Shown here: positions 16,369-21,450 of the stretch, piece after piece
How positions within the stretch are numbered: position 1 is the first letter of the stretch
Layout of the letters: each line of letters begins with the position of its first letter
NCBI RefSeq assembly: GCF_041103235.1
Contig: NZ_JBGCUN010000001.1
Span: 2,542,001 to 2,606,000, forward strand
Reading direction: 5' to 3'
Length of the DNA stretch: 64,000 bases
From: Yoonia sp. R2331
GTDB taxonomy: Bacteria > Pseudomonadota > Alphaproteobacteria > Rhodobacterales > Rhodobacteraceae
Made by a program: the position numbers and the translations under genes
The notes under the pieces: generated by a model
The model's input: only the letters and a program-made list of their open reading frames with translations
Databases searched by the model: none
Told to the model about the DNA's origin: nothing

Positions 16369-17145
16369 ATGAAGATAAAGAATCTTTTGGCCGCGACGAG
16401 TATCGCGGTTATGTCCGCAACTGCGTCGATGGCTGCCGTGATCGACCTCGGGTTCCTGATGGATGAATCAGGCAGTGTTCGTTCAGCGAATTATGCCTCG
16501 GCGATGAATGCGCTGGCAGACGCCCTGGACGCAAATATCCCGGTCAATGATCCAACGTTGACATATCGCATTGGCGTGATCTCTTTTGGTTCGTCCGCGG
16601 ATACGTCGATCCCGCTGACCACAATCAACAGTCAAGCCGACCTTGACGGGCTGGTGTCGGCGGTGCGTGCTGAGGCAACCGACTTTGCCAACGCTGGCAG
16701 CACCAACTACAACTCAGCCTTCAACGCACTGGATGCAATGTTTGGCGATGTGAGCGGATCGCAGGCCAGCCTGATCAACATGACCACGGATGGCAACAAC
16801 AACTCCGGCACACCAAGCACAGCCGGTTTGCGTGCAAATGGCTGGGACTCGCTGAGCTTTGAGGCCGTCGGCCCGGGCGTCAGCACTGGACCGCTGAGCG
16901 CACTTGCGTTTGACACAAATGGCATCGGCGGCGCGCCGGTGATTGCCAATGCGGGTTTGATCACCAACCCGTTGACGGACTCCTTTGTGCTGACCGTCAC
17001 CGACTACACGCAGTATTCGCCTGCGATCAACACCAAGATCCAGCGGACTGTTGCCCCGCAGGTTCCACTGCCTGCTGGTATGCCACTGATGATTGCCGGT
17101 TTGGCAGCATTCGGCGTCATGAAGCGGCGTAAGAAAGCGGCGTAA
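16369..17145 (+). CDS. Secreted vWA-domain protein with VPLPA-CTERM sorting tail
   Basis: A 258-residue exported protein. A signal peptide (~residues 1-22, ending SMA) leads into a von Willebrand A domain whose MIDAS DxSxS is FLMDESGSV (~30), with further MIDAS-type residues near STNYNSAF and NMTTDGN. The C-terminus is a three-part sorting signal: VPLPAG (~231), a hydrophobic helix (MPLMIAGLAAFGV) and a basic end (MKRRKKAA). That is the VPLPA-CTERM pattern processed by exosortase in marine Rhodobacteraceae. vWA domains mediate metal-dependent adhesion. No exosortase gene is in the window. A CtrA-like box lies upstream and a bidirectional terminator downstream. Confidence 0.88.
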   Translation: MKIKNLLAATSIAVMSATASMAAVIDLGFLMDESGSVRSANYASAMNALADALDANIPVNDPTLTYRIGVISFGSSADTSIPLTTINSQADLDGLVSAVRAEATDFANAGSTNYNSAFNALDAMFGDVSGSQASLINMTTDGNNNSGTPSTAGLRANGWDSLSFEAVGPGVSTGPLSALAFDTNGIGGAPVIANAGLITNPLTDSFVLTVTDYTQYSPAINTKIQRTVAPQVPLPAGMPLMIAGLAAFGVMKRRKKAA

Positions 17146-17710: not shown

Positions 17711-18679
17711 ATGACCCAGACACAGCACACCAAGGTTCTGATCGTAGGGTCTGGTCCGGCGGGCTATGCCGCAGGGGTCTATGCCAGCCGCGCCATGCTG
17801 GAGCCGATGTTGATCCAAGGGATCGAGCCGGGTGGGCAGTTGACCACCACGACAGAGGTTGAAAACTGGCCTGGCGACACCGAAGTCCAGGGCCCTGACC
17901 TGATGGTCCGGATGGAGGCGCACGCCCGCGCAATGGGGTGCAATATTGTGCATGATATCGTGACCGATCTGGATCTGAGCAAGCGACCATTTACCGCAAC
18001 ATGCGACAGCGGCGCGGTGGTCACGGCGGATGCGGTCATTCTGGCTACTGGCGCGCGGGCCAAATGGCTGGGGCTGGAAAGCGAAGAGGCGTTCAAGGGG
18101 TTCGGTGTCAGCGCCTGTGCGACCTGCGACGGGTTCTTTTACCGCGGGCAGGAAATTGTTGTGATCGGCGGCGGCAACACCGCCGTGGAAGAGGCGCTGT
18201 TCCTGACGAATTTCGCCAGCAAGGTGACACTGGTCCATCGTCGCGACGAGTTGCGGGCTGAAAAGATTCTGCAGCATCGCCTGATGAAGAACCCCAAGAT
18301 CGAACCACTCTGGTTCCACGAGCTGGTAGAAGTGTACGGGGAAGACAACCCCAAGGGTGTCGAAGGTATCAAGGTCAAGCACACCAAGACCGGAGAGATC
18401 ACGGATATTCCCTGCAAGGGCGTCTTTGTGGCCATCGGCCATGCACCTGCGAGTGAGCTGGTCAAGGATCAGCTGGACACCCATTCGGGCGGCTATGTCG
18501 TTGTCGAGCCCGGCAGCACGCGCACCGCGATCCCCGGCGTTTTTGCCGCTGGCGATCTGACCGACCACGTTTACCGGCAGGCGGTCACATCGGCGGGCAT
18601 GGGCTGTATGGCGGCGCTTGATGCGGAAAAGTTTCTTGCTGAGATGGAAGACGAAGGCGAGGCTGTCGCGGCAGAATGA
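17711..18679 (+). CDS. trxB: Thioredoxin-disulfide reductase
   Basis: A 322-residue FAD enzyme that uses NADPH to reduce thioredoxin in the cytoplasm. Seen: FAD-binding LIVGSGPAGYAAGVYASRA near residue 12, the redox CxxC in SACATCDGFFY near 138, NADPH-binding VVIGGGNTAVEEALF near 155 and a C-terminal FAD segment GVFAAGDLTDHVYRQAV. ATG 17711 gives the expected N-terminus; the longer frame has no support. The stop overlaps the start of the RES-like gene as ATGA, so the two are translationally coupled. Confidence 0.95.
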   Translation: MTQTQHTKVLIVGSGPAGYAAGVYASRAMLEPMLIQGIEPGGQLTTTTEVENWPGDTEVQGPDLMVRMEAHARAMGCNIVHDIVTDLDLSKRPFTATCDSGAVVTADAVILATGARAKWLGLESEEAFKGFGVSACATCDGFFYRGQEIVVIGGGNTAVEEALFLTNFASKVTLVHRRDELRAEKILQHRLMKNPKIEPLWFHELVEVYGEDNPKGVEGIKVKHTKTGEITDIPCKGVFVAIGHAPASELVKDQLDTHSGGYVVVEPGSTRTAIPGVFAAGDLTDHVYRQAVTSAGMGCMAALDAEKFLAEMEDEGEAVAAE

Positions 18680-19116
18680 TCCCCTTTGCGGGTCAGGTCT
18701 GGCGCACGATTTTTGCCGGGGCCGATGATGCAACCCGCCCCGTGGCTTCGACCGAGGGTCGATTTCATCACGATGGGCAGACGGCGATCTACACGTCCCT
18801 GACAGCCGAAGGCTGCCGGGTGGCGATCAAGCGCTATGTCGGGTCCAACGAGCCACCGAGGATCATCGTGCCGCTTGACGTGCGGCTGACCAAAGTCGTT
18901 GACCTGCGTGGGCGGGCCGAGCTGTCGACGGTTTGGCAGGACATCCGCGCAACTGGTGCCCCCGCCCCCACCTGGGCCTATTCCGATGCTGCGCGGGCGA
19001 GTGACGCGCAGGGGCTGCTATATTCCTCGCGCTCGCGACCTGATTTGACGCATCTTGTGGTTTTTTCCGGCGATCCCGATGCCGTCGGCGTGGCTGGGCC
19101 GGCACTTCCATTTTGA
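18676..19116 (+). CDS. RES-domain-like protein, orphan
   Basis: A 146-residue protein with the RES pattern: an N-terminal VWRTIFAG, then EGRFHHDGQTAIYTSLTAEG (compare GGRFNPKG.PALY), VPLDVRLTKVVDLR and a C-terminal YSSRSRPDLTHLVVF. Canonical RES toxins of type II systems hydrolyse or phosphorolyse NAD+. The Glu usually found about 12 residues after the Tyr seems to be replaced (VAIKRY), so catalytic ability is uncertain. No Xre/MbcA/ParS antitoxin flanks it. Instead it overlaps trxB by ATGA. I am moderately sure of the fold and unsure of the function. Confidence 0.6.
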   Translation: MIPFAGQVWRTIFAGADDATRPVASTEGRFHHDGQTAIYTSLTAEGCRVAIKRYVGSNEPPRIIVPLDVRLTKVVDLRGRAELSTVWQDIRATGAPAPTWAYSDAARASDAQGLLYSSRSRPDLTHLVVFSGDPDAVGVAGPALPF

Positions 19117-19309: not shown

Positions 19310-19325
19310 TGTTCTTTTGTGAACA
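19310..19325. promoter_or_regulatory. Operator 1, TGTTC-N6-GAACA
   Basis: TGTTCTTTTGTGAACA is an inverted repeat 74 bp before ATG 19399 of the MarR-type frame. Together with the second copy the shared sequence is TGTTC-N4-GTGAACA. Palindromes of this size are typical MarR-family operators, so autoregulation is a reasonable inference. Confidence 0.6.
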
Positions 19326-19341
19326 CATTTGCCGTGCAATA

Positions 19342-19357
19342 TGTTCAGGCGTGAACA
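19342..19357. promoter_or_regulatory. Operator 2, TGTTC-N6-GAACA
   Basis: TGTTCAGGCGTGAACA repeats both half-sites of operator 1 exactly and the GT before the right half. The two centres are 32 bp apart, about three helical turns, so two dimers would bind the same face of the DNA. The site ends 41 bp before ATG 19399. Confidence 0.6.
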
Positions 19358-19374
19358 AAGATTGAGTCGGGCCC

Positions 19375-21450
19375 GTGCAGCCAACACCCCAGACACCGAT
19401 GACGGATGAACAAGAGGCGTTGTTTCGCCTGTTGCGTCAACTGGATCATGCGCCGGACGCCGCCCAGCGTCAAACGGCGCAGGCGGTCGGCGTGTCCTTG
19501 GGGCGGCTGAACGCACAGCTTAAGGCGGCTGTGGCCGCAGGCTATATCAAGATCGGCAACCGCAACAGCACCGACAAACGACAGCGCATGGCATATGGGC
19601 TGACCCCCAAGGGCGCCGCCGAAAAGGCCCGGCTGACGGACCTTTTCCTTGCCCGGAAATTTCAAGAATACGACGCCCTACATGCAGAGCTGAAGGGCTC
19701 TGCCAGTGGCTATGTTCCGACTAACCAAAGGACCCAACTGATGCAAAATAACCTTGCCCCCATTCCAGAGCTTTATGTCAGTTTTGACAGCGCCCAAAAG
19801 ATGAAGATGGACGCTGCAGAGCTGACCAGCCACGACCTGACCCCACGCCAGATTTGCGATCTGGAACTTCTGATGAACGGCGGGTTTAACCCGCTCAAAG
19901 GGTTCCTGAGCGAAGACGACTACAACGGCGTTGTCGAAAACATGCGCCTGGCCGACGGGCAGTTGTGGCCGATGCCGATCACGCTGGATGTGTCCAAGGA
20001 CTATGCCGAAAGCATTGAAATTGGGCAGGACATCGCGCTGCGCGACCAGGAAGGCGTGATCCTTGGCACGATGACCGTGACCGACAAGTGGGTGCCGAAC
20101 AAGGCGCGCGAGGCCGAGATGGTGTTTGGTGCCGACGACAGCGCCCACCCCGCCGTAAACTATCTGCACAACACCGCCGGAGAGGTTTATCTGGGCGGGC
20201 CGGTGACCGGCATTCAACAGCCTGTGCATTATGATTTCCGTGCCCGTCGCGACACGCCGAACGAATTGCGCGCCTATTTCCGCAAGCTGGGTTGGCGTCG
20301 TGTGGTTGCGTTCCAGACCCGCAACCCGCTGCACCGGGCGCATCAGGAACTGACGTTCCGCGCCGCCAAGGAAGCGCAGGCCAACCTGCTGATCCACCCG
20401 GTTGTCGGTCTGACCAAGCCGGGCGACATTGATCACTTTACCCGCGTGCGCTGCTATGAGGCTGTGCTGGATCAATACCCCGCCTCGACCACCACAATGT
20501 CCCTTTTGAACCTTGCCATGCGCATGGCTGGCCCGCGGGAAGCGGTCTGGCACGGGCTGATCCGCAAGAACCACGGCTGCACCCATTTCATCGTGGGCCG
20601 CGACCACGCTGGCCCCGGCGCCAACAGCCAGGGCGAGGATTTTTATGGCCCTTATGATGCGCAGGACCTGTTCCGCGAGCATCAAGAGGAAATGGGTATC
20701 GAAATGGTCGACTTTAAGCACATGGTTTATGTGCAAGACCGCGCCCAGTACGAACCTGCAGACGAGATCACCGACAAGGATGACGTGACGATCCTGAACA
20801 TTTCCGGCACCGAATTGCGCCGCCGTCTGGCCGAAGGTCTGGAAATTCCCGAGTGGTTCAGCTTTCCGACTGTGGTGGAAGAGCTGCGCAAGACACGTCC
20901 CCCGCGCGCCAGCCAAGGGTTCACCGTGTTCTTCACCGGCTTTTCGGGCTCTGGTAAATCCACCATTGCCAACGCGCTGATGGTCAAGCTGATGGAAATG
21001 GGTGGCCGTCCGGTGACGTTGCTGGATGGTGATATTGTCCGCAAGAACCTGTCGTCCGAGCTTGGGTTCAGCAAAGAACACCGCGATCTGAACATCCGCC
21101 GGATTGGCTATGTCGCCTCTGAGATTACCAAGAATGGCGGGATCGCGATTTGCGCACCCATCGCGCCTTATGCCACCACGCGCCGGGCTGTGCGCGAGGA
21201 TATTGAGGCCTTTGGTGCCTTTATCGAAGTCCACGTGGCAACGTCGATCGAAGAATGCGAACGCCGCGACCGCAAAGGGCTTTATAAGCTGGCGCGCGAA
21301 GGCAAGATCAAGGAGTTTACAGGCATTTCAGACCCTTATGACGTGCCTGAAAACCCTGAGCTGTCGCTCGATACCGAAAATGTTGAGGTGGACAACTGCG
21401 CGCATCAGGTGATCCTGAAGCTGGAATCGATGGGTTTGATCAAGGCCTGA
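19375..21450 (+). CDS. MarR-type EPS-associated regulator domain in frame with sulfate adenylyltransferase/APS kinase
   Basis: One 691-codon frame without a stop joins two parts. The first ~110 residues read MTDEQEALFRLLRQLDHAPD and VSLGRLNAQLKAAVAAGYIK, closely resembling the EPS-associated MarR-family regulators (TIGR04176-like). After a short linker (GSASGYVPTNQRTQL) comes a complete Sat-CysC bifunctional enzyme. The family start is ATG 19399; GTG 19375 is also in frame, and neither has a strong ribosome site. An internal ATG at 19741 has AAAGGA at ideal spacing and gives the usual Sat-CysC N-terminus. Both a fusion protein and free enzyme may therefore be made. Two palindromic operators lie just upstream. 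Confidence 0.75.
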   Translation: MQPTPQTPMTDEQEALFRLLRQLDHAPDAAQRQTAQAVGVSLGRLNAQLKAAVAAGYIKIGNRNSTDKRQRMAYGLTPKGAAEKARLTDLFLARKFQEYDALHAELKGSASGYVPTNQRTQLMQNNLAPIPELYVSFDSAQKMKMDAAELTSHDLTPRQICDLELLMNGGFNPLKGFLSEDDYNGVVENMRLADGQLWPMPITLDVSKDYAESIEIGQDIALRDQEGVILGTMTVTDKWVPNKAREAEMVFGADDSAHPAVNYLHNTAGEVYLGGPVTGIQQPVHYDFRARRDTPNELRAYFRKLGWRRVVAFQTRNPLHRAHQELTFRAAKEAQANLLIHPVVGLTKPGDIDHFTRVRCYEAVLDQYPASTTTMSLLNLAMRMAGPREAVWHGLIRKNHGCTHFIVGRDHAGPGANSQGEDFYGPYDAQDLFREHQEEMGIEMVDFKHMVYVQDRAQYEPADEITDKDDVTILNISGTELRRRLAEGLEIPEWFSFPTVVEELRKTRPPRASQGFTVFFTGFSGSGKSTIANALMVKLMEMGGRPVTLLDGDIVRKNLSSELGFSKEHRDLNIRRIGYVASEITKNGGIAICAPIAPYATTRRAVREDIEAFGAFIEVHVATSIEECERRDRKGLYKLAREGKIKEFTGISDPYDVPENPELSLDTENVEVDNCAHQVILKLESMGLIKA
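19741..21450 (+). CDS. Sulfate adenylyltransferase/adenylylsulfate kinase (internal start product)
   Basis: The 569-residue enzyme makes APS from ATP and sulfate, then PAPS. The N-terminal Sat domain shows QTRNPLHRAHQ (QxRNP and HxxH), VGLTKPGD and GRDHAGPG. The C-terminal APS kinase (from ~residue 390) has the P-loop FTGFSGSGKST, LDGDIVRKNLSSELGFS, CAPIAPYATTRR and the FTGISDPYDVPENPEL lid. Start 19741 is supported by AAAGGA eight bases upstream (19727-19732). The role may be sulfur assimilation or PAPS supply for sulfated polysaccharide; the EPS-type regulator domain in front favours the second. It ends at an intrinsic terminator. Confidence 0.88.
   Translation: MQNNLAPIPELYVSFDSAQKMKMDAAELTSHDLTPRQICDLELLMNGGFNPLKGFLSEDDYNGVVENMRLADGQLWPMPITLDVSKDYAESIEIGQDIALRDQEGVILGTMTVTDKWVPNKAREAEMVFGADDSAHPAVNYLHNTAGEVYLGGPVTGIQQPVHYDFRARRDTPNELRAYFRKLGWRRVVAFQTRNPLHRAHQELTFRAAKEAQANLLIHPVVGLTKPGDIDHFTRVRCYEAVLDQYPASTTTMSLLNLAMRMAGPREAVWHGLIRKNHGCTHFIVGRDHAGPGANSQGEDFYGPYDAQDLFREHQEEMGIEMVDFKHMVYVQDRAQYEPADEITDKDDVTILNISGTELRRRLAEGLEIPEWFSFPTVVEELRKTRPPRASQGFTVFFTGFSGSGKSTIANALMVKLMEMGGRPVTLLDGDIVRKNLSSELGFSKEHRDLNIRRIGYVASEITKNGGIAICAPIAPYATTRRAVREDIEAFGAFIEVHVATSIEECERRDRKGLYKLAREGKIKEFTGISDPYDVPENPELSLDTENVEVDNCAHQVILKLESMGLIKA

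Follow-up and report, generated by a model that had tools for sequence, protein, structure and literature searches.

The window analysed here, a stretch of 64,000 nucleotides from Yoonia sp. R2331 (Rhodobacteraceae), contains a gene in which a DNA-binding domain of the MarR_EPS family, hereafter the head, is read in frame with Sat-CysC, the bifunctional ATP sulfurylase and adenosine 5'-phosphosulfate (APS) kinase, i.e. a 3'-phosphoadenosine 5'-phosphosulfate (PAPS) synthetase. Comparison with related genes makes it probable (about 75%) that this is a two-product gene that represses itself and yields the enzyme both with and without the head. The figure covers two-product self-repression; the response to a ligand is graded separately below. 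We propose that a single frame gives a long form of 691 amino acids (aa), starting at the GTG at 19375 and carrying the winged-helix head, and a short form of 569 aa, starting at an internal ATG, which would be the enzyme alone. The long form would bind an operator with the core GTTCA-N4-TGAAC that overlaps its own promoter, and repress its own gene. The features, in window positions, are as follows; 'fused' and 'unfused' refer to Sat-CysC genes with and without the head.

19310-19325, no strand: upstream operator-like palindrome, TGTTC-N6-GAACA; shuffled versions of the window hold 0.05 exact sites on average; a second site is found in 26 of 94 relatives.
19314-19340, forward strand: promoter-like elements, CTTTTG at 19314-19319 and TGCAAT at 19335-19340, proposed from column conservation in 94 loci.
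19342-19357, no strand: main predicted operator, with the GTTCA-N4-TGAAC core; overlaps the promoter-like -10 region; kept in 94/94 fused loci with sufficient upstream sequence and, within 700 nt, in 0/35 unfused loci.
19375-21450, forward strand: entire fusion gene, encoding 691 aa; the fusion is listed for at least 90 of the 394 genomes sampled.
19375-19740, forward strand: MarR_EPS-type head, with a winged helix (residues 11-76), a long helix (78-107) and the first residues of the linker (low confidence).
19696-19740, forward strand: linker from head to Sat, residues 108-122, extending to about residue 136 in the model.
19727-19732, forward strand: internal Shine-Dalgarno (SD) sequence AAAGGA, with the rare arginine codon AGG at 19729-19731.
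19741-21450, forward strand: Sat-CysC (ATP sulfurylase and APS kinase), also translatable alone from the ATG at 19741.

The frame is open from the GTG at 19375 to the stop codon at 21448-21450, and the head runs into a complete Sat-CysC without a stop between them, as an initial annotation made from the letters of the window had claimed. Both parts exceed the thresholds of curated profiles: the head by itself reaches 99.1 bits with TIGR04176 (MarR_EPS), whose cut-off is 88, and the full protein reaches 1045.6 bits with NF004040 (Sat-CysC), whose cut-off is 669, across both of its domains. The order of Pfam domains agrees (winged helix, PUA-like, ATP-sulfurylase, APS kinase). By profile and by structure model, enzyme and DNA-binding domain are thus part of a single polypeptide, which is one trait of DNA-binding trigger enzymes. 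The head likely starts at the GTG at 19375, 17 nt past the downstream operator, with the ATG at 19399 as the alternative; the distance between the operator and the first in-frame ATG or GTG is 15-20 nt in 70 of 93 fused relatives.

Structure models are consistent with this architecture. The AlphaFold model of the head alone has a mean predicted local distance difference test score (pLDDT) of 84.1, and its 22 Foldseek matches in the PDB (E ≤ 0.001) comprise 21 proteins of the MarR family, assigned by title or recall, and one Sso10a-2; as modelled, the head has the MarR winged-helix fold. A sequence search of the PDB with the head gave a single, meaningless match (E = 0.77). The full-length model is modest (pLDDT 68.5); in it the winged-helix head stands apart from the Sat-CysC body, to which it is joined by a linker modelled with low confidence (about residues 108-136). 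Between residues 108 and 136 it has no helix of four residues and no strand of three, and pLDDT is below 50 over 115-136. The best PDB matches of the body are fungal ATP sulfurylases and the bifunctional enzyme of Aquifex aeolicus (2gks; Foldseek E = 7e-42, with a template modelling score of 0.38 from this modest model). The latter shares the order and the family of Sat and CysC, in line with the NF004040 score, but lacks a DNA-binding head, as do the 34 unfused relatives compared on the tree described below.

The fusion is widespread and old. We sampled 394 genomes of the family, about one per genus, and counted TIGR04176 matches within open frames at least about 600 residues long or, in one genome (G036), interrupted by the end of a contig. 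At least 90 genomes carry one, two of them from the window's own species. A search for the head in 101 genomes placed the fusion in the window's own genome, in four congeners and in nine other genera, among them that of G036, where the gene is cut by the contig end. We then examined 95 fused genes (79 fetched from the 394-genome listing and 16 earlier loci), which include four congeners of the window (L032, L033, L034 and L004) and one gene of its own species (L031) whose head is identical to that of the window; there are no near-identical pairs of heads among the 95. In every one of these genes the head and Sat share a reading frame. This comparison of the junction across relatives bears on the alternative raised in the initial annotation, a stop codon lost in this lineage, to which we give almost no credence, whether as a true loss or as a wrong assembly; nothing emerged in its favour. 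A lost stop or a sequencing error is ruled out by the number of genomes sharing the fusion and by the 95 intact junctions; the grouping of the heads and the selection acting on them point the same way. The fused heads form a single group (SH-like approximate likelihood ratio test, SH-aLRT, 100) in a quick tree of 104 columns with 37 rows of free-standing MarR_EPS, which correspond to 34 distinct genes, three having been fetched twice. The ratio of non-synonymous to synonymous substitution rates (dN/dS) is 0.06-0.10 in the head in nine pairs, and 0.03-0.08 in Sat-CysC. By this measure the head is under purifying selection, which rules out a decaying remnant.

The Sat-CysC tree (89 fused and 34 unfused rows) intermingles the two kinds, with 23 changes between them, at least six of which are forced by well supported branches. 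The simplest reading of this tree is a single early fusion followed by repeated losses of the head; gene transfer may be an alternative source of the mixture. Among 385 genomes sampled across the class, none outside the family was listed with the fusion (E up to 1e-12); the two matches with a frame of the length of the fusion both came from this same family. The class-wide genomes also contain, in many other alphaproteobacterial families, sub-threshold TIGR04176-like domains, carried on open frames some 200-290 residues long.

The second line of evidence is the operator. The initial annotation had pointed to two TGTTC-N6-GAACA sites 32 bp apart; both are present and exact, at 19310-19325 and 19342-19357. 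Dinucleotide shuffles of the window contain a mean of 0.05 exact sites, and none of 100 contains two. When one mismatch is allowed the window has three sites for 1.8 expected, which is unremarkable: the unusual feature is the exact pair. Across relatives the pair needs refinement, since the conserved core is GTTCA-N4-TGAAC and only the downstream site is general. With at most one mismatch, the core is present in each of the 94 fused loci whose upstream sequence is long enough (the remaining locus, L218, has just 391 nt), 376-416 nt ahead of the Sat start, and its ten arm positions are invariant except for one base in one locus. These loci were selected by their head, not by their operator. Of the 94 loci, 26 have an additional palindrome no more than 60 nt upstream, with a spacing of 32 in 12 loci, 33-35 in four, 46-49 in eight, and 26 and 29 once each. 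In the 35 unfused Sat-CysC loci of the 101-genome sample, neither the core nor TGTTC-N6-GAACA (one mismatch at most) was found within 700 nt upstream; one of them (L082) has a palindrome at -1194. A chance origin is rejected for the exact pair by the shuffles and for the conserved site by its absence within 700 nt of the 35 unfused genes. Fusion and operator agree in all six of the independent pairs that supported branches provide (p = 0.031 by sign test); the best tree contains 23 such pairs when support is disregarded. Just 5' of the main operator, column conservation in the 94 fused loci reveals the blocks CTTTnC and TGnnAT, which look like a promoter whose -10 region would be overlapped by the operator. 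The operator is conserved and tied to the fusion; the head is predicted to bind it.

The third line of evidence is the internal start. The AAAGGA pointed out in the initial annotation stands at 19727-19732, 8 nt before the ATG at 19741, and the site is kept in all 95 fused genes: the Sat start codon (ATG in 90, GTG in four, TTG in one) is placed exactly 9 nt after AGG (93 genes) or CGG (two genes), giving the pattern (A/C)GG-9 nt-(A/G/T)TG. AGG accounts for only 45 of the 5008 other arginine codons of the same genes (about 1%), and its column is the strongest synonymous outlier among the 521 codon columns scanned (6.54 bits, the next being 1.52). Such conservation indicates that the internal start is under selection at the sequence level. 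Its predicted pairing with the anti-SD sequence has a median of -4.0 kcal/mol, compared with -2.2 for 93 head starts, -2.2 for 1321 other in-frame ATGs and -3.2 for 34 unfused Sat starts. With this stronger pairing, the short enzyme probably outnumbers the repressor-bearing form, so that the internal ribosome site would provide most of the enzyme. Nothing stands out in the RNA structure at the internal start (z = -0.49). A check of protein size in Roseobacter litoralis proteomics was uninformative: the 64.39 kDa protein listed in PMC4103551 is presumably a plasmid-type copy. In the ten close plasmid copies found, the match to the query begins no earlier than residue 109.

Free-standing members of the MarR_EPS family suggest what the head recognises. 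GTTCA-N4-TGAAC (one mismatch at most) is found within 400 nt upstream of 21 of the 34 distinct genes (21 of 37 rows); among simulated 420-nt windows the frequency is 1.2%, and among coding windows it is 4 of 272. The fused heads and the free-standing proteins also share the recognition-helix pattern around S-x-G-x-x-N. We thus predict that the palindrome is an autoregulatory binding site of the MarR_EPS family; a literature search aimed at the family found no report of such a site. The name of the family implies a free-standing gene in an exopolysaccharide locus, and the neighbours of free-standing members in five larger stretches are mostly glycosyltransferase-like, sugar-nucleotide and chain-length-type frames (by eye from translations), whereas the head is here the N-terminal domain of an enzyme. 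Many fused relatives have heads just below the TIGR04176 cut-off, at 72-88 bits. The free-standing proteins, of about 104-130 aa as read (the reading was limited to 130), also have a longer C-terminal helix: the last helix of the head has about 30 residues and ends near HAELTG, whereas theirs continue EYEALKAEIEAL and further. One suggestion from this shortening is that dimerisation of the enzyme may contribute to the pairing of the heads, which would then act through enzyme dimers.

Sequence comparison thus settles the fusion, its age, the selection on the head, the association of operator and fusion, and the selection on the internal start; DNA binding, repression, the predominance of the short form and the pairing of heads are inferences. 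The two-product gene with its own DNA-binding head, as first suggested in the initial annotation, now draws strong comparative support from the internal ribosome-binding site and start, from the fusion-linked operator and from the palindromes of free-standing relatives. A more tentative extension, which we put somewhat below even odds, is that the PAPS synthetase is its own one-component sensor and repressor. Occupancy of Sat or CysC by a ligand (APS, PAPS, ATP or sulfate) would alter DNA binding by the heads, making the enzyme a true sensor, and the programmed second start would set the ratio of repressor-bearing to plain subunits. PAPS supply for sulfation, especially of polysaccharides, would thereby be self-tuned with a head borrowed from polysaccharide regulation. 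Whether the PAPS-bound or the idle enzyme is the repressor is a guess. Two products and self-repression could also exist without sensing, the long form keeping expression constant and the fusion only tying its dose to that of the enzyme. The operator and the internal start fit this variant equally well, and the little-structured, low-confidence linker of the model makes tight coupling to the enzyme unnecessary. A separate gene in the operon would suffice for such control, yet head and enzyme share a frame in every fused locus, and we regard the variant as rather unlikely.

Several observations weigh against two-product self-repression. The palindrome is absent from the 400 nt upstream of 13 of the 34 free-standing MarR_EPS genes, and a scan of the forward strand with the sigma-70 consensus found no promoter. 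The mixture of fused and unfused genes on the tree implies that the head has probably been lost often and is dispensable. The short form could arise from a promoter inside the head rather than from internal initiation. A very improbable alternative is that the internal start is inert and only the fusion is made, the AGG-ATG arrangement being maintained by something else, for instance a pause of the ribosome where the two domains join. Rare codons at domain borders can indeed slow ribosomes; pausing needs no start codon, though, and the codon concerned varies solely among ATG, GTG and TTG at a fixed distance from AGG or CGG.

The distribution of operators in the rest of the genome bears on a further possibility, namely that the head acts chiefly elsewhere, e.g. 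on polysaccharide genes, and is merely carried by the enzyme. The polysaccharide-type surroundings of the free-standing relatives are in its favour. So is the number of one-mismatch sites in the window's own genome, which also counts against a regulator confined to its own gene: there are 39 and 40 on the two strands, compared with 10 and 15 for a reversed-pattern control, an excess of three to four times that could reflect further targets or sequence bias. Degenerate targets of the head elsewhere in the genome are thus possible. On the other side, the exact sequence GTTCANNNNTGAACA occurs once in the 4.03 Mb of this genome, at the fusion gene; perfect GTTCA-N4-TGAAC arms are found at five further places (L092, L104, L108, L237 and L238), each inside a mechanical reading frame. 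These sites suggest that the target set is probably small; we consider an action chiefly elsewhere improbable. A wider regulon in this genome draws no support from the exact sites, and the perfect-arm sites fall within reading frames.

If two-product self-repression is correct, sulfate activation joins the short list of enzymes with a DNA-binding domain of their own, in many genera of a large bacterial family, and does so with an evolutionarily fixed internal start that should yield the enzyme with and without its repressor head. NadR is one trigger enzyme with such a domain. Like PutA, BirA and NadR, which hold catalytic and DNA-binding parts in one polypeptide and repress genes of their own pathway, the fusion is predicted to repress a gene of its pathway. 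It differs from these three in being an enzyme of sulfate activation, in its MarR_EPS head, in having its own gene as predicted target, and in the conserved internal start that should also give a head-less enzyme. Passages of PMC6978683 and PMC5343134 describe PutA and BirA, respectively, as trigger enzymes with DNA-binding domains, and the latter source also mentions that enzymes related to BirA lack the domain in other lineages, a likeness to the unfused Sat-CysC genes. A full-text literature search, beyond the reach of which lie most subscription journals, returned no title or beginning of an abstract naming the fusion.

The only PF01507 match of the window's own genome is a CysH with CCHLRKTEPL and SIGCQPCT, the two two-cysteine motifs given for APS reductases in PMC3125206; the same paper calls the substrate uncertain for a CysH of C. 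violaceum, which has these motifs in a genome with cysC. With these motifs present, sulfation may draw on the PAPS from CysC more than cysteine synthesis does, which would make a dedicated control of Sat-CysC sensible. The genome has four matches to the sulfotransferase family PF13469, three of which pass the cut-off, one of these only together with in-frame neighbours. A likely use of PAPS in this genome is therefore sulfation, with which the kinship of the head with polysaccharide regulators agrees. On plasmid pTB2 of R. denitrificans, a head-less Sat-CysC (L236, 14989-16701) lies inside an XrtD/VPLPA-CTERM and polysaccharide cluster, a context that hints at a use of PAPS in polysaccharide sulfation; no palindrome was found upstream of it in the 15 kb read.

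The gene preceding the fusion encodes a RES-domain protein (PF08808, 61 bits; 18676-19116, forward strand), whose frame overlaps the last part of the preceding frame, which looks TrxB-like by eye. Inspection by eye recognised no Xre-type antitoxin frame beside the RES-domain gene. About 2 kb before the fusion, a secreted von Willebrand-type-looking frame (by eye; 16369-17145, forward strand) ends in a VPLPAG-like sorting signal; a von Willebrand factor type A gene and VPLPA-CTERM genes also adjoin the head-less Sat-CysC of pTB2.

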